From Labia minor (taxonomy: Eukaryota; Arthropoda; Insecta; Dermaptera; Spongiphoridae), in the NCBI GenBank assembly GCA_963082975.1, contig OY720346.1, positions 44,121,296-44,185,295 of the forward strand: DNA of 64,000 bases. The letters run 5' to 3'. Under the pieces are notes generated by a model. It had not been told where the DNA came from and searched no databases. It worked only from the letters and a program-made list of their open reading frames with translations. Positions 11,565 through 61,460 of the stretch are shown here, in pieces. The translations under genes and the position numbers were made by a program. The number at the start of each line of letters is the position of its first letter. Within the stretch, counting starts at the first letter, position 1.

Positions 11565-11824
11565 AGATATGCGCCACAGGGTGGGACGTAGCGTAGCTGA
11601 CTGACATTCTCGTAGTCAAGTCCCGGGCCTAGAATTTCTCTTGCTGGTGTGTATGGGACGAAGTCAATCCAGGATCAAAATTGGGAAGCTACTTGATTAA
11701 AAATAGAACCTCAGATCAAAGTTAAGGTTGATAGGACCTGTTCTACTGATCATTGGACATCTAATTGATATAACCGACTTGATAGGCGTTTTCCTTGCGT
11801 AGGACGTACAAAGTCAGAGGTTAT
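11565..11824 (+). mobile_element. SINE family S1, copy 1
   Basis: A diverged plus-strand copy of the repeat at 61.19-61.46 kb. A GCGCCACAGGGTGG head is followed by a B-box-like AGTCAAGTCCCGGG, then the body. The body ends with a TTCTACTGATCATTGGACA block and a GATATAACCGACTTGATAGG block. (GA)n precedes it and (TA)n follows it, so a target duplication cannot be picked out. It is non-autonomous and presumably mobilised by a LINE. Confidence 0.65.
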
Positions 11825-12426
11825 ATATATATGTTTGTGAGTATTTATAAATTATGATATATAAAGATGTATCAGCCTTTCTGAAAGTTTTAAAACTTTT
11901 TTATGAAATTGACTGATTGAAAGGGTGAGGAATAAAAATGTACTGAAGCTTTGAATTTTTCATCAAATGAAGCATAAATGGCAGCACCAGTTCGAATTAA
12001 AACTACCATACCGATTGAGTCAACTGTCTTGTAAATAAATCTTAAATTTTAAATCGTACGGTCAGGTAATGTCAAATTGGTATAAATAGCGTGTGAGTAG
12101 TAAGGTCGGTGATGCGTATATTGACATTGTAACAAACCCACCAGAGATTGAGAATTTGTCAAGAGAGTCTAGACAATTTGAACTCAAAATCGCACTGGCG
12201 TGATAGCATAGTTTGAAAACTTATTAAAAATATATAAAAACTATTTTTTTTTTCATTTTTTTTTTGCATTACGCTAACTTCAAATGATCGTATAAATAAT
12301 AAAATAACTTATTTGATAAAATATATATTCCATTTAACTTATATATACGAGTATATATAAGATAATGACACATAGTATAAATTTAATAGAGTCAACTGGA
12401 GCGGTAACCTAACAAGAAGTCTTATA

Positions 12427-28732: not shown

Positions 28733-29680
28733 CAGGGTGCTTCAAAAAAATGTATACACACTTTGAACTTCCATAGAAAATTTATTTACCGTTCTACAAA
28801 GTTAAATTTCAGGAAAGTAGAAAGCTGAAAGTCCAATGTAAATGAAACATAAATAACAAATGTTAATACTGTTCAAATTGGTGACCTGCAGCATCAATAC
28901 AATTCTGAGTACGAGTCACCACTGATTCTGTACATCGTATCCAAACGTCCAATGAGATTTCTCTACACACTGCTTGAATCTCATTCCAAAGAATGTCTAG
29001 GTTACGTGGTTTACGTTTGTACACCTCATCTTTTACTGTGCCCCACAAGAAGAAATCCAGTGGTGTAAGGTCTGGAGAGCGTGCTGGAAATTCGATTGGC
29101 CCCCTGCGTGTAGGGCACAGTAAAAGATGAGGTGCATTATCCTGCAAAAAAGCCCAACTGTCGATTTCTCTATATTCTGACCGAATACGACGAATTCTTG
29201 CCAGCAAACACTTCATGACGCCTAAGTAAAACTCTCCAATGATTGTCTGGCCGGGTGGAACAAATTCTTTGTGGATAATTCCTTTTGAATCGTGAAAATC
29301 CGGTTCTGGGACGGCCTGATCTTTCGTCATCATCCAGCGTCTCTCTACCCGATTTGAATCGTCAGAACCAAGCGTAAACTTGCGTACGGGATATACAATC
29401 ATCATCATATGCATTTAGTAGCATTTGGTGCGTTTCAGTAAAAGTTTTACCAAGTTTAACACAAAAATCAATTGCAGCTCTTTGTTTGAAACTCATTTTC
29501 CAACCAATGTACAAAACACACTGACATTTGAAACGCAACAACTTTTGTTGTATGCATCCAAATGTCATGAAATTTATACCAGTTGTCAATGAGGGACTCA
29601 TCTACGGGTAAAATATTACAACAGATGGCATTAGTGGTACTATTTTAGTTCGGTTTCTTTTGAAATGGAGGGTGTATATA
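28733..29680 (-). pseudogene. Chimeric mariner-type transposase relic
   Basis: The minus strand encodes an N-terminal helix-turn-helix (RAAIDFCVKLGKTFTETH, then SRTQVYAWF). A central KGIIHKEFVPPGQTI block leads to WAFLQDNAP. The C-terminal PARSPDLTPLDFFLWG block comes from a different mariner lineage. The central part between the helix-turn-helix and KGIIHKEF is missing, and a frame change near 29,380 separates the N-terminus, so the copy is dead. The lower end (28,733) starts CAGGGTGCTTCAAAAAAATG, a mariner-type terminal sequence after TATA. The opposite end (about 29,660-29,680) has only a weak GGAGGGTGT match. Confidence 0.7.
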
Positions 29681-32528: not shown

Positions 32529-32530
32529 AA

Positions 32531-32787
32531 CCTCTGACTCTTGTACGTCCTATAGAAGGACAACGCCTAACAAGTCGGTTATATTAATTAGGTGTCCTAT
32601 GATCAGTATAACGGATCATATCAACCTTTACCTTGATTTTCCTGATCGGAGGCACTACTACTTATCAAGTAGCTTCCCAATTTTGATCCCAGAGGCTGGG
32701 TTGATTCCCTCCCATAGTCCCCAGCTAAAGAAATTCCCTCGGCAGGTCCAGGACGTGAACACGGGGCCTCCTACCCTGTGGCGCTTC
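32531..32787 (-). mobile_element. SINE family S1, copy 2
   Basis: It runs from CCTCTGACTCTTGTACGTCC (tail, left) to CCCTGTGGCGC (tRNA-like head, right), about 257 bases. The frame through it is an accident of the SINE. Its left edge coincides with the end of the H1 repeat, so one element probably inserted at or near the end of the other. Confidence 0.7.
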
Positions 32788-45982: not shown

Positions 45983-47413
45983 TTAAGGATTAAGTGAAAA
46001 TTTATAATTATCAATTTCTAATATTTGTATTGTGTCAATCAACTCTTGAGGTAAAATATTCCAATTGCTAACTCCATAAACACTTTCTAAAAATGGACAA
46101 TTATTAATCAATAGCCAAAGTGCTTTTATGGTCAAATGATTAGCTGAATGTAAACGTAACGATTTCATTGATTGCCATATGCCTATATTTAAATAATTTT
46201 CAACATCTTCATCAGTAATTGTCATATAATCATCAATATTCAAATGTTCAATAGATGGCATTGAAATTAATAATTTATTAATTGATTCTGGCTCATAATT
46301 GGAACACCAAATATCAAATTTTATTAAATTTGGATAGAAATAATGTTTTTCTTCAAATTTAATTGATATATAATTAATTTTAAAAATGTCTAATGTCCTA
46401 AGATTTGGACATGATTCTAATATATTTATAATTTTCAAACGACCCTTACCAATTAATAATTCAAATGTTTCAACTTGTCTACCGCATTTCACAACTAATT
46501 CTTCAATCTCCTCGCAATGAAAACTATTCACTTTGATATTATGTAATAATTTAAATGCTGATAATTGACGAATAATTCCTGGCTTAGGCCGATCTAAATA
46601 AATAGAAATTAAATTCGGACATAGTTCTTTTAATGAATTTAAAATTGGTGATGATGTTTGAGAATCACGAACGTATATAAAATTCGTTCTTTTATTGGAT
46701 TTAGTTGTAGTGGTGGCATAAATGGACAAGGCTTTTCCAGCTAATGGATAACTACCCAATGAGATTAATGATGGAAAATGATCAATCATTAGTGCAGCCA
46801 TTTCTGGTGAAATTAAATTCTGATGAATTCCGCCAATGTCTAATACTTTTAAATTCATTAATGTGGGCCATTCACGTTTCACTAAAGAGTCCAAACATGT
46901 TGCTATTGAATTGCCTGATATATCTAAAATTCGCATTAAAGGATTATATCTTAAAATTGTTACCATAATTTTATCATTCACAATATGCCTTGCCCATAAA
47001 ATTTCCAATTTTGACAATTTCATTAAAACAAATTTAAACATAATAAGATTATCATTTTTTATCCAGAAACCTCGCATATCTAAATATTTTAAATTCATGC
47101 ATTTATCACGGATCATATCTAAAATTGTTTTATGATAATTTTCAGGAAATGAGCCAAGTTTTAATTTTTGCGTTTGGTCATTTAATAATAACTTCATTGT
47201 TTGAATACGGCATTCACATTCAATATTATAAGAGAGTATCAATTCTAATAATAAATCATTAATAAATACAGGTATTTTCTCTAAATACTGAGCCACGGAT
47301 TGAAAAATAGTTGTATCATGATATAATGGATTTAGTGTAAAGTTAATTATCTGCTTTGCAAATGCCGAACTGGCAATTGATGTTAAATCCAATGGTTGAA
47401 TTTTAGGTGCCAT
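45983..47413 (-). CDS. Single-exon leucine-rich repeat protein, F-box/LRR-like
   Basis: A 476-residue intronless frame with no signal peptide. Residues ~30-70 (YLEKIPVFINDLLLELILSY) resemble the short helical start of F-box or LRR-cap regions, but a canonical F-box is not clear. From ~105 on, irregular ~25-residue leucine-rich repeats follow: MNLKYLDMRG, LSKLEILWAR, PLMRILDISGN, MNLKVLDIGG, FPSLISLGS, CPNLISIYLD, CPNLRTLDIF and MPSIEHLNID. These are of the cysteine-containing or F-box-LRR type. In that family such repeats bind substrates for SCF ligases; this role is inference here. The first Met (MAPKIQPLDL) is chosen as the longest start. I do not recognise an orthologue. The gene is divergent from the methyltransferase gene 805 bases upstream. 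Confidence 0.85.
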   Translation of the reverse strand: MAPKIQPLDLTSIASSAFAKQIINFTLNPLYHDTTIFQSVAQYLEKIPVFINDLLLELILSYNIECECRIQTMKLLLNDQTQKLKLGSFPENYHKTILDMIRDKCMNLKYLDMRGFWIKNDNLIMFKFVLMKLSKLEILWARHIVNDKIMVTILRYNPLMRILDISGNSIATCLDSLVKREWPTLMNLKVLDIGGIHQNLISPEMAALMIDHFPSLISLGSYPLAGKALSIYATTTTKSNKRTNFIYVRDSQTSSPILNSLKELCPNLISIYLDRPKPGIIRQLSAFKLLHNIKVNSFHCEEIEELVVKCGRQVETFELLIGKGRLKIINILESCPNLRTLDIFKINYISIKFEEKHYFYPNLIKFDIWCSNYEPESINKLLISMPSIEHLNIDDYMTITDEDVENYLNIGIWQSMKSLRLHSANHLTIKALWLLINNCPFLESVYGVSNWNILPQELIDTIQILEIDNYKFSLNP

Positions 47414-51623: not shown

Positions 51624-52757
51624 ATGGAAAGAGAAGTGCACGAGTTTATGCAATATTATATAAATAGTATATTGAGTGAGCGTGATTTTCAATTTGTTTT
51701 GCAAAGTTATGCAGTATTGCAAAATGAGAAAACTATTAAAGTACGCTCAAATAAAGGCTTGTTCAACCTCGAAATAATGGATGAAGAACAAGTTAAATTA
51801 AATTTCCGATTTAAAAAAAAAGATCTAGATGTGTTAAAAAACGCATTGAAAATCCCTGACGTTATTGAATTTAAATCCGGTTGCAGAGTGCAAGGCCTTA
51901 TTGCACTCTGTATTCTACTAAAACGGCTTTCATATCCTAACCGCCTAAAAGATTTAGAAGATATGTTTGGGATGTGTTATTCTAGTATTAGCGAAATAAT
52001 CACATGGATGATTCAATTTATTTCGGACAGCCATGGACATTTGCTACAAGACATTGGGAACATTTCGTGGTTAAATCAAGACAAATTAAATAATTACTGC
52101 TCTGTAAGTTCATATTTTTATCTATCTATATGTTATAATTCTAAATAGAATAGCATATTTTTTAATATCTAATTTATAAATTTATTTTAGGCCATTTCCG
52201 ATTCAAGAAATGCTCCACTTACATCTTGTTGGGGTTTCATTGAAGGCACACCCAGAAGAATATGCCGCCCACAAAAAAATCAACAAGATTACTTTAGTGA
52301 ACATAAGCGATTCCACTGTGTGAAATACCAATCCATCTTGGCTCCTGATGGATTAATTAAAAATTTACAGGGATCATTTAAAGGAAAAAGACATGATGCA
52401 GGTATATTTAGAGAAAGTCGGATCTATGAACAGTTGATTAGGCTACATCAATTTGGATCCAATTATGTTATTTATAGGGATCCCACCTATCCCATTTCGG
52501 ATGTTTTGATATCGCTATTTCGTGGAGCCAGTGTTAATATTCATCAACAAATGTTTAACTCTAAAATGAGTACAGTCCGGCAAGCGGTCGAATGGGGTTT
52601 TCAAAAAATATGTACATTATTTACATTTGTGGATTTTCATAAGAATCAAAAATTACTATTACAAGATGTAACTGGCATGTATAAAGTTGCTACTTTACTT
52701 ACTAACTGCCACACTTGTTTATACGGGGGAGTCAGACATCACAATATTTTAATATAG
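51624..52757 (+). CDS. HARBI1-like PIF/Harbinger transposase (DDE_Tnp_4)
   Basis: Two exons (51624-52103 and 52191-52757), with donor GTAAGT and acceptor TTTTAG, give 348 residues, nearly the length of vertebrate HARBI1. The N-terminal half has the helical FRFKKKDLDVLKNAL and a DLEDMFGMCYSSISEII helix-turn-helix. The catalytic domain keeps D257 (YRDPTYP) and E294 (AVEWGFQKI) with family spacing. It also keeps KYQSILAPDG, KGKRHDAGIF and a WGFIEGTPRRICRP block. In that block Glu178 stands where the first catalytic Asp of IDGT is expected. Both exons are open. No PIF terminal repeats or 3-bp duplication were found, and no Myb-like partner gene is present. It may be a recently dead transposon or a domesticated gene. 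Confidence 0.85.
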
Positions 52758-58480: not shown

Positions 58481-58630
58481 TGCTTATCCAGGGATGGGCA
58501 AGTTACTCGATTTTGAGTAATCAGATACCAAATACCAATTACTTCAGATTTGTGTAACGAAATACAAGATACCAATTACGTATTTGAAATACATTGAAAA
58601 TACCAATTACATTCAAATTTTCCCTTGATT

Positions 58631-59720
58631 TTAATTCTTTTTTTGTGGGGGGGGGGGGGTAATTCTGGAATGAATGAACCCCGCAAATGAAAACAATCTT
58701 TCAACCGGGGAAGAAGAACAAAGATGTGTATTAAATATTATAAATAATTCTTTTATTAAAGGATAATTGTTCAAAGAAGTAAAATGTTTGCTCTTATCAT
58801 TAAAATAGGGTACAATTTCTAAGTCCATCTTTGAGTCCATTTTATCTTCTGGTGAGCTCAATAAAACAAGAATGTTGTCTTCCTCATCACTATTAGATGA
58901 AGAGTTGTCATTATTATTTATGCATTCTTTAAATTGTTTTGAGGCATTTATACATAAATTATAAATTCTTTTTTTTTCACTTTCACGTGTATTTGTTAAC
59001 CATCTTAATTTAAAAGTTGGATGTAAACATGTAGCCAAAATGGCTTCGTTTACTTCAGGAGATAATTGAAAAAATAATTTAAATCTTCTTTCAAGAGCTT
59101 CTAATAAAGGTGAAATTAAATTACCAACATAGCGTAATCTCTCTGATTTTAAAGATTCAAGTTTAATCTTTAGCGAAATAAGTTGACCTGTGGCCAGGTC
59201 CGAACCGACCGACGGTTTGAAATAAATTAATTTCCAGCTACAGAAACAATTTCAAATAATTTTAATATATCTATTAATGTAATAAAAAACAGATATGAAT
59301 ATAACATAAATAGTTTTAATTTTATTTTATTTATAATATATATGTAAGACCAGGCTGTGACATCATGAATGGCTGGATGACGTCATATAATTTTAAATTA
59401 AGAAAAACCTATAAAGATGATTTTTCTCTAGGATAAAACCAATACAAAGTGAATTATTCGTGATATGTAAAAATCTCCACATGTGAAATTTGGTGTGAAA
59501 ACAATACCTCCCTTACTATCGTCGGTCGGTAAAAAGTGTTGGAATCAAATGACCATAATATGAATTATTTTCACCTTGCAAATGATCTAATGCCATTGCA
59601 ATAGGTTTCATTAAAATTATTATTTCGGATAAATAATCCAAATCACTATCTTTGAAAGACTTTAATTCTAGTTGTTTGCAAACAATATTAAGTTTATCTT
59701 TATATTTTAATAATTAAATC
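58631..59720 (-). pseudogene. hAT transposase C-terminal half, split by a repeat
   Basis: On the minus strand the upstream part (59,720-59,540) reads KIYKDKLNIVCKQLELKSFK, then DYLSEIIILMKPIAMALDHL and the YYGHLIPTL block. After the H2 insertion it resumes with a GQLISLKIKLESL segment. It then continues as a 135-residue open frame (59,038-58,631) with ATCLHPTFKLRWL and the dimerisation block YPLIKELFIIFNTHLCSSSP followed by VERLFSFAG. The frame ends in a G-run near 58,650, which removes the last part of the hATC domain. The N-terminal zinc finger and the first catalytic block are absent. Confidence 0.8.
59190..59535 (+). mobile_element. Hairpin-ended repeat, family H2, copy 2, inside hAT
   Basis: ACCGACCGACG (59,204-59,214) and CGTCGGTCGGT (59,520-59,530) are perfect inverted repeats near the two ends. 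The terminal TGATATGTAAAAATCTCCAC block and the GGTGTGAAAACAATACC block match 9,236-9,310. It interrupts the hAT coding sequence between PTL and the GQLIS segment without an obvious target duplication. It is shorter in the middle than the copy at 8.8 kb and is non-coding. Confidence 0.65.
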
Positions 59721-59906
59721 AAAATGAATCGTACAATGAGCTCCACCGGGTGGGTAGCTAAATTTCATAAGGCTGCAAATTTAAAAAAAAATGTATTTGG
59801 TATCGAAAATTTCAGATACCAATTACTTAAAACTGTAACGAAATACAAGATACCAATTACTCAGGGCTGTGCGTAACGAGTTACAAGATACCAATTACAA
59901 TTGTAA

Positions 59907-61105
59907 CACAGGCCAACAAAAAAATTTGTTTGAAAACTTTTTTCACGTTAATAGGTGATGTTTATAGATTTTTTTGAGCTGAATCCAAATCTGGCCTTGG
60001 TTTTTTTGTATCACGCACAGTTTTTGAGCAATCTGTTTTTTAATGATATAGTATAAAACCACTTTAGTATATAGGGAAATTAATGAAACGCTATGTTAAA
60101 TCATAAGCATGGTTTGTATTTACAACTTAAAACAGTGACCGAATGTGTGCCATTATAGGTTTTTATTGATATTACAGGTTTCACTTGTCAGCTGGAATTG
60201 GTTTATACTTCCGTTCTCTTTTTTCTTTGAAGCTTCTTATGTAGCTTTTTCTTCGATGTGTTGCTTGCTGAACTTCACGGTGAAGTGACCAACAATAGTC
60301 CCCCATCATGTTGGTGTTCCAGCGGCCCTGGTAGCGTTTTTCCATCACTTTAATGTCTTGGTGAAAACGTTCGCCTTGCTCCTCGCTAACATCTCCCAAA
60401 TTGTCTGGGAAGTAATCAAGGTGGCTATTCAAAAAGTGAACTTTCAGGCTCATCAAACATCCTAAATTTTTAAACTTCTTTAACATGTTAGCTACAATAG
60501 AAACATGTTCTGGATCTTTTTTATTCCCCAAGAATTTTGTAACGACTTGCTTGAATGATATCCATGCTTCTTTCTCATTTACGGTCATTGTGGATTCAAA
60601 GTTAACGTCAAACATCATTTTTCTAATGTCAGGTCCGACAAAGACGCCTTCTTTTTGTTTAGCTTCTGAAAGGTGTGGAAACTTTTGGCTGAGATACTTA
60701 AAACACGGTCCATCTTTAGGCAGAGCCTTAACAAACTGTTTCATGAGTCCTAATTTTATATGTAGAGGTGGTAGGAGCACGTTTTTTGGATCTACAAGGT
60801 TTCTGCGTAGAATGTTCTTCTCACCTGGGTTTAAGGACTTCCTCACAGGCCAGTTCTTTCTGCACCAATGTTGATCCCTAGCCCTACTATCCCATTCGCA
60901 CAAGAAACATGGAAATTAAATTAAATTAATTAAATTCTTTAAATATCGCTAAACGCAAAAATCTCGAAAAAAATGCATTTAACTATAAAATGTGAAGAAA
61001 TGGTAGGTGATTCAGTTTTTTAAGCATCATATTTGGATTCAGCAACCTAAAAAACATAATAATAAGGTATATTCATTAAAAAAGTTTTTTCATCGTTGGC
61101 CTGTG
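59907..61105 (-). mobile_element. 1.2-kb CAC-ended DNA transposon inside the hAT end
   Basis: The terminal inverted repeats CACAGGCCAAC / GTTGGCCTGTG are flanked by TAA on both sides (59,904-59,906; 61,106-61,108). Subterminal 13-mers GCTGAATCCAAAT (59,978-59,990) and its exact reverse complement (61,031-61,043) lie 71 and 62 bases from the ends. Removing the element restores a symmetrical ACCAATTACAATTGTAATTGG in the hAT end. CAC-type ends plus a 3-bp duplication fit the CMC (CACTA/Mirage/Chapaev) group. A TAA duplication also fits Harbinger. The class is inferred. Confidence 0.8.
60181..60903 (-). CDS. Transposase-like protein of unassigned family
   Basis: A 240-residue open frame inside the CAC-ended element. 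It starts with CEWDSRARDQHW, and the sequence just upstream reads CFL before it, giving a C-x-x-C-like start that suggests a lost zinc-binding N-terminus. Then come VLLPPLHIKLGLMKQFVKAL, EGVFVGPDIRKMM, LKVHFLNSHLDYFPDNLG, EEQGERFHQDIKVMEKRYQG and MGDYCWS, ending in a basic tail. I recognise this pattern as one repeated many times in arthropod genomes as an uncharacterised transposon protein. The HxxHxD and GERFHQD blocks look catalytic, but that is inference. Known relatives are longer, so this is probably the C-terminal half. Confidence 0.7.
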   Translation of the reverse strand: MCEWDSRARDQHWCRKNWPVRKSLNPGEKNILRRNLVDPKNVLLPPLHIKLGLMKQFVKALPKDGPCFKYLSQKFPHLSEAKQKEGVFVGPDIRKMMFDVNFESTMTVNEKEAWISFKQVVTKFLGNKKDPEHVSIVANMLKKFKNLGCLMSLKVHFLNSHLDYFPDNLGDVSEEQGERFHQDIKVMEKRYQGRWNTNMMGDYCWSLHREVQQATHRRKSYIRSFKEKRERKYKPIPADK

Positions 61106-61186
61106 TAATTGGTATCTTGTATTTCAAATACATGTAACTGATTAACGCCCATCCTTGTGCTTATCCTAGTGGTATATGTTAACTAT

Positions 61187-61460
61187 TTTTTATAATCTCT
61201 GACTTTGAACGTTCTACGCAAGGACATCAAGCCGGTTATATCAATGAGGTGTCCTATGATCAGTAGAACGGGTCCTCTCAACCTTTACCTTGAATTTCTT
61301 GATCGGAGGCGTTATCAAGTAGCTTTTCCCCAATGTTGTTCCCGGAGGCTGGGTTGACTCCTTCCCATAGACCCAGCTAGAGAAATTCCCTTGCCAGGCC
61401 CGGGACTTGAACCCGGGACCATGTGAATGTTCGCCACTCACACACCCAATGGCGCCTCTT
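61187..61460 (-). mobile_element. SINE family S1, best copy, with 12-bp target duplication
   Basis: TATGTTAACTAT occurs at 61,175-61,186 and 61,461-61,472, a perfect 12-bp duplication. On the minus strand the head starts GAGGCGCCATTGGG with an A-box-like TGTGTGAGTGGCG and a B-box GGGTTCAAGTCCC (61,402-61,414). A ~190-base body follows, ending TCAAAGTCAGAGATTATAAA. Retroposition by a LINE is shown by the duplication. The open frame across it is accidental. Confidence 0.85.

Follow-up and report, generated by a model that had tools for sequence, protein, structure and literature searches.

A 1.2-kb transposon nested in a hAT-like element of Labia minor: probably an internally deleted member of the CMC group

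The 1.2-kb DNA transposon at positions 59907–61105 (1199 bp) of a 64 000-nucleotide stretch of Labia minor DNA (the window) raises the question of whether it is a complete small element with its own transposase or the remainder of a larger one, and of where its protein belongs. An initial annotation described it as a compact transposon with a transposase-like protein of no named clan, pointed tentatively to the CMC (Chapaev–Mirage–CACTA) group, and proposed a fold prediction together with a search for an RNase H-like core with three acidic residues; a clear match to a family of capsid, host or other non-transposase proteins would have counted against it. In this study, the ends, the insertion site, the open frame and possible relatives of the element were analyzed. 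The element, with its coding fragment on the minus strand, is probably a non-autonomous cut-and-paste transposon that arose by internal deletion within the CMC group, and its anatomy is closest to that of Chapaev3.

The element begins with CACAGGCCAAC and finishes with GTTGGCCTGTG, giving the termini CAC...GTG. Three inverted blocks are paired between its ends: the terminal inverted repeat CACAGGCCAAC (59907–59917 on the plus strand, the 3' end relative to the coding strand, and 61095–61105 on the minus strand), an 11-bp subterminal block common to both ends, AAAACTTTTTT (59933–59943, plus; 61078–61088, minus), and an exact 13-bp subterminal inverted repeat, GCTGAATCCAAAT (59978–59990, plus; 61031–61043, minus). 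The trinucleotide TAA is duplicated on the left (59904–59906) and on the right (61106–61108). The 11-bp terminal repeats, the exact 13-bp subterminal repeats, the TAA duplication and the length given in the initial annotation were all recovered, and its reading of the locus as a DNA transposon insertion is supported by the ends, the duplication and the empty-site palindrome described below. When exact 11-bp inverted repeats with at least five G/C were sought 300–3000 bp apart and next to an exact 3-bp duplication, this was the sole pair in the window, and none was present in any of 20 first-order Markov resamples of it. The threshold of at least five G/C was the analyst's choice, and 179 pairs occur in this AT-rich window when it is dropped (a figure without a resample comparison), so that the weight rests on how G/C-rich the two termini are. 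With up to two mismatches, GCTGAATCCAAAT occurs twice in the window against 2.5 occurrences expected from shuffles; it is not commoner than chance, and its value therefore lies in its exactness and placement. No second copy of the element was seen within the 64-kb window, nor was a full-length parent encountered.

Independent support for these boundaries is provided by the insertion site. When the flanks are joined at one TAA they form a perfect 38-bp palindrome, and 3 bp is the only duplication length between 0 and 6 that fits, lengths of 0–2 and 4–6 giving palindromes of 12–14 bp. In the simplest reading, the insertion broke a pre-existing palindrome, and both termini as well as the 3-bp duplication have been assigned correctly to the base. 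A counterweight is that perfect palindromic runs of 38 bp, the longest in the window, are also found at 2295–2333, in overlapping registers as in simple repeats, whereas the joined site is not itself a simple repeat.

The interrupted palindrome is part of another element. A hAT-like element occupies 58489–61157, with terminal repeats CAGGGATGGGC and CAAGGATGGGC that match at 10 of 11 positions, between two copies of the 8-bp target duplication TGCTTATC (58481–58488 and 61158–61165); it is 2669 bp long with the insert and 1467 bp long minus the insert and one TAA. No other pair in the window combines an exact 8-bp duplication with inverted repeats that match at 10 or more of 11 positions, six or more G/C and a separation of 500–6000 bp, and no such pair was present in any of 10 Markov resamples. 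From this anatomy, an 8-bp duplication with short terminal inverted repeats as in hAT elements, we infer that 58489–61157 belongs to the hAT superfamily. Its short ORF at 58631–59038, to which we would ascribe a hAT-like C-terminal look, matched no Pfam family at E up to 0.01. The sequence GATACCAATTAC, with at most one mismatch, occurs nine times in the window against 0.5 expected; all nine occurrences lie within 58524–61116 and cluster towards both ends of the hAT-like element, and the 38-bp palindrome belongs to this repeat set. The possibility that the palindrome in the flanks forms an outer arm belonging to the 1.2-kb element was considered and rejected, since GATACCAATTAC is also present at the far end of the hAT-like element (58524–58610) and the 8-bp duplication encloses both sets. 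The 1.2-kb element lies inside 58489–61157, in the end of the hAT-like element, and is therefore the younger of the two nested insertions.

Other repeats and ORFs are present in the window. An interspersed repeat of 210–240 bp was found at 61194–61420, 32529–32768 and 11616–11825 (minus strand), and the second and third copies share 79% and 75% identity, respectively, with the first. The copy at 61194–61420 contains a stretch that resembles the B box of tRNA genes (GGTTCAAGTCC, minus strand), ARAGORN reported no tRNA, and the repeat is presumably a tRNA-derived SINE. Remains of PIF/Harbinger type lie at 51624–52757, where the ORF 52320–52757 matches DDE_Tnp_4 (E 2.1e-13), and a Mariner-like transposase fragment lies at 28863–29414 (Transposase_1, E 0.0018, below the Pfam cut-off). 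The longest of the 13 listed ORFs of at least 120 aa is an uninterrupted one of 476 residues at 45983–47413, which shows weak similarity to leucine-rich repeats (E 0.00012 at best, below the cut-off) and is probably a host gene.

The coding part of the 1.2-kb element is a minus-strand frame that is open for 244 codons (60184–60915), between an in-frame TAA directly upstream (60916–60918) and the stop TGA (60181–60183), and that exceeds the longest frame (211) in 2000 Markov resamples of the element. The listed ORF of 240 residues starts at a TTG inside the C(2)C motif, and the open frame extends four codons further upstream (FPCF). Its motifs suggest that it is the C-terminal fragment of a CMC-type DDE transposase. 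On the minus strand, it carries a C(2)C motif, CFLC (60898–60909, residues 3–6), an LH motif within PPLHIK (60760–60765, residues 51–52) and an H(4)H motif, HFLNSH (60421–60438, residues 160–165). These are followed by EEQGE (60370–60384), in which the glutamates 13, 14 and 17 residues after the second H are candidates for the last catalytic E; further glutamates occur at +27, +49, +66 and +69. In shuffles of the fragment, the motif order alone was reproduced in 215 of 100 000 and a strict spacing pattern, the bounds of which were fixed after the sequence had been seen, in 87 of 100 000.

Chapaev transposases, as described in PMC4079192, are characterised by C(2)C, LH and H(4)H, and the wider CMCT clade shows C(2)C and H(3–4)H motifs with a signature of 2C + 3H ahead of the last E; CA..TG ends and duplications of 2–5 bp are common across the clade (PMC12730594). 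The element has TAA on both sides, within the range of 2–5 bp, and its fragment carries C(2)C, LH and H(3–4)H in order before a candidate for the last E. These motifs and ends, taken together, point to membership of the CMC group, with Chapaev3 as the nearest type by anatomy; the CMC suggestion of the initial annotation thus gained the three motifs in their proper order, but no profile match. The absence of a profile match also counts against the assignment, as do the G to the left of the duplication and the distance from H(4)H to E, which is 13–17 here and 20 in RAG1.

The placement within the group is less firm. The duplication TAA agrees with the TWA of Chapaev3, for which the insertion context is given as A-TWA-T (PMC4079192), but in this single copy the duplication lies between G on the left and T on the right; since the context is matched on one side only, the element is not filed as Chapaev3 proper. 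An origin in a CMC-type lineage other than Chapaev3, such as EnSpm/CACTA, Mirage or an undescribed CMCT branch, is a serious possibility that falls somewhat short of being probable: the one-sided context and the fact that no profile names the element are consistent with it, as are the clade-wide CA..TG ends and 2–5 bp duplications (PMC12730594), whereas a TAA duplication agrees with the TWA rule for Chapaev3, and the three motifs all correspond to the description of Chapaev (PMC4079192). It appears rather unlikely that the fragment comes from a separate, as yet unnamed lineage of animal elements within the CMCT clade, marked by GERFHQD and HFLxSHLDxFP. If this were true, full-length members would constitute a new lineage alongside Chapaev3, characterised by CACAG ends, TAA targets and a modular arrangement of subterminal repeats, and lacking a curated Pfam profile.

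Whether the element could act alone depends on how much of the protein is encoded. A complete, compact autonomous transposon, with the 240-residue protein acting as a small transposase of novel type, would agree with two intact ends and with a frame longer than any in the 2000 resamples. However, this frame opens right after a stop codon and two residues before C(2)C, its first in-frame Met is residue 58, downstream of both C(2)C and LH, and the minus-strand open stretches that overlap the remaining 190 bp upstream span 25–37 codons, which leaves no room for two D. In mouse RAG1, as described in PMC4914335, the first two catalytic aspartates, D600 and D708, lie upstream of the zinc-binding C727/C730, and H937/H942 precede E962; since D708 precedes C727 and the fragment opens two residues before its first C, both D would be absent here. 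The compact autonomous element is consequently very improbable, and the frame reads as a truncated fragment rather than a complete protein. The fragment would keep the zinc insertion, a candidate glutamate and the C-terminal tail, both catalytic aspartates having been lost. An AAATT-rich run at 60913–60944 may mark the junction of an internal deletion, which is the likely cause of the truncation. Many arthropod and cnidarian `uncharacterized proteins' have, we assume, this same region after a FIDSS...ICGD stretch that would supply the two missing D. A deletion product of this kind has a precedent in two Chapaev MITE families, which are direct internal deletion derivatives (PMC4079192). The single open frame of the initial annotation is therefore real, and four codons longer than stated, but it is not a complete protein; the description as a compact transposon with a transposase is not borne out, because the coding part opens only shortly ahead of C(2)C and the upstream aspartates would be missing, and of the three acidic residues of an RNase H-like core at most the last is contained in it.

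In profile searches with an E-value limit of 5, none of Pfam, PHROGs and NCBIfam returned a family for the 240-residue ORF, which begins after the first C. No capsid, host or other non-transposase family was therefore matched in these three libraries, and by the same result no CACTA or RAG1 model backs the CMC assignment. A PIF/Harbinger-type element is hardly credible. The TAA would fit, as canonical Harbinger elements have 3-bp duplications (PMC12730594), but DDE_Tnp_4 was not matched at E up to 5, and the same Pfam library found this family in another ORF of the window at E 2.1e-13, although a fragment without the catalytic core could also miss the profile. To our knowledge, neither CAC...GTG ends nor the C(2)C, LH and H(4)H motifs are Harbinger features. 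A captured host gene fragment between transposon ends would explain the missing start codon and the lack of a transposase profile match, but it is scarcely plausible given that motifs of a transposase group occur in order and that no host family was matched in Pfam either.

A sequence search of the PDB with the 240-residue ORF at E up to 10 returned two matches, neither of them to a transposase: one was a ribosomal protein S17, with E 0.028, and the other a regulatory subunit of a phosphatase, with E 6.1. The fold prediction proposed with the initial annotation, made from the single sequence, was poor (mean pLDDT 43.6, pTM 0.28), and a structure search of the PDB with this model gave 152 matches, none of which reached E <= 0.001; RAG1 and Transib were absent from the best 50 of the 152, and the matches are noise. 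Furthermore, searches of viral, phage, plasmid and prokaryote collections yielded no relative of the fragment. A protein-based locus search of viral contigs yielded six pattern stretches, none of which was confirmed; the pattern GERFHQDI gave seven stretches in viral contigs and 27 in genome contigs with no confirmed relative, HFL..HLD(F/Y)FP gave three and PPLHI.LGL(M/V) gave none. When the 244-residue fragment was compared by tblastn with the loci fetched by these patterns, the best E values were 0.018 (34 loci) and 0.019 (37 loci), and these matches, mostly short and around the fetching motif, are read as chance. The terminal-repeat pattern was found once in the viral contigs, without a second end and with a tblastn E of 0.45 for the fragment, which is likewise attributable to chance; the contig concerned (46.6% G+C, with long frames) was read by the analyst as phage-like. 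The phage and plasmid collections each gave one tblastn match, at E 6. Since the source is an animal, the misses in viral, phage, plasmid and prokaryote collections say little about distribution. A literature search for GERFHQD gave no match, although a string search alone does not show that a family is undescribed, and the titles among the matches listed for the terminal-repeat strings were unrelated to transposons.

The internally deleted CMC-group element can be fitted into the following course of events. The parental element would have carried the gene for a DDE transposase of the RNase H-like type, and a deletion would have removed everything upstream of the zinc-insertion domain, namely the N-terminal part, both catalytic aspartates and the start codon, leaving both ends and the C-terminal coding half in place. 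A full-length transposase encoded at another genomic locus would bind both the terminal and the subterminal inverted repeats, make its cuts at the CAC/GTG ends and integrate the element into a TAA target, which repair would duplicate; the landing site would have been the palindrome in the subterminal region of the hAT-like element. The subterminal blocks may accordingly take part in transposase binding. Mobilisation would be in trans, the copy presumably being inactive by itself and dependent on a complete relative.

The 1.2-kb element looks like a member of an already known kind of transposon and an ordinary deletion product. A frame that had been left as `transposase-like' can now be placed, by its motifs, as the half of a CMC-type DDE transposase that contains the zinc insertion, and annotators are given a guide to the parent, which should have the ends CACAGGCCAAC and two D upstream of CFLC. 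The gap in the curated profiles, in which this protein has no match, means that a mobile-element family can stay hidden. In addition, any lineage that shares the zinc-ligand order is a possible comparison for RAG1-like recombinases, although the present copy cannot act alone.

Three known systems can be compared with the element. With EnSpm/CACTA and other CMCT elements it shares the CA..TG ends, the duplications of 2–5 bp and the 2C + 3H before the last E (PMC12730594); however, it ends in CACAG, whereas the plant elements are described as ending in CACTA (PMC4158355), and its fragment matches no Pfam family. The order of zinc ligands is that of mouse RAG1, with C(2)C, a long insertion, H(4)H and E, although 154 residues separate the second C from the first H here and 207 do so in mouse RAG1 (730 to 937; PMC4914335), and the 240-residue ORF found no match to RAG1/Transib among PDB sequences. 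The closest likeness is to Chapaev3 (Garfield, Merrow and Conan; PMC4079192), a likeness of anatomy that is drawn from published descriptions. The element differs in having G, not A, to the left of the duplication and in keeping only the C-terminal half of the transposase, and it is about half as long as Garfield_BM, which has 2289 bp and a transposase of 556 residues (PMC4079192). It shares with Chapaev3 the CAC...GTG ends, the 3-bp TWA duplication and the C(2)C, LH and H(4)H motifs, and Chapaev3 likewise has internal deletion derivatives (PMC4079192).
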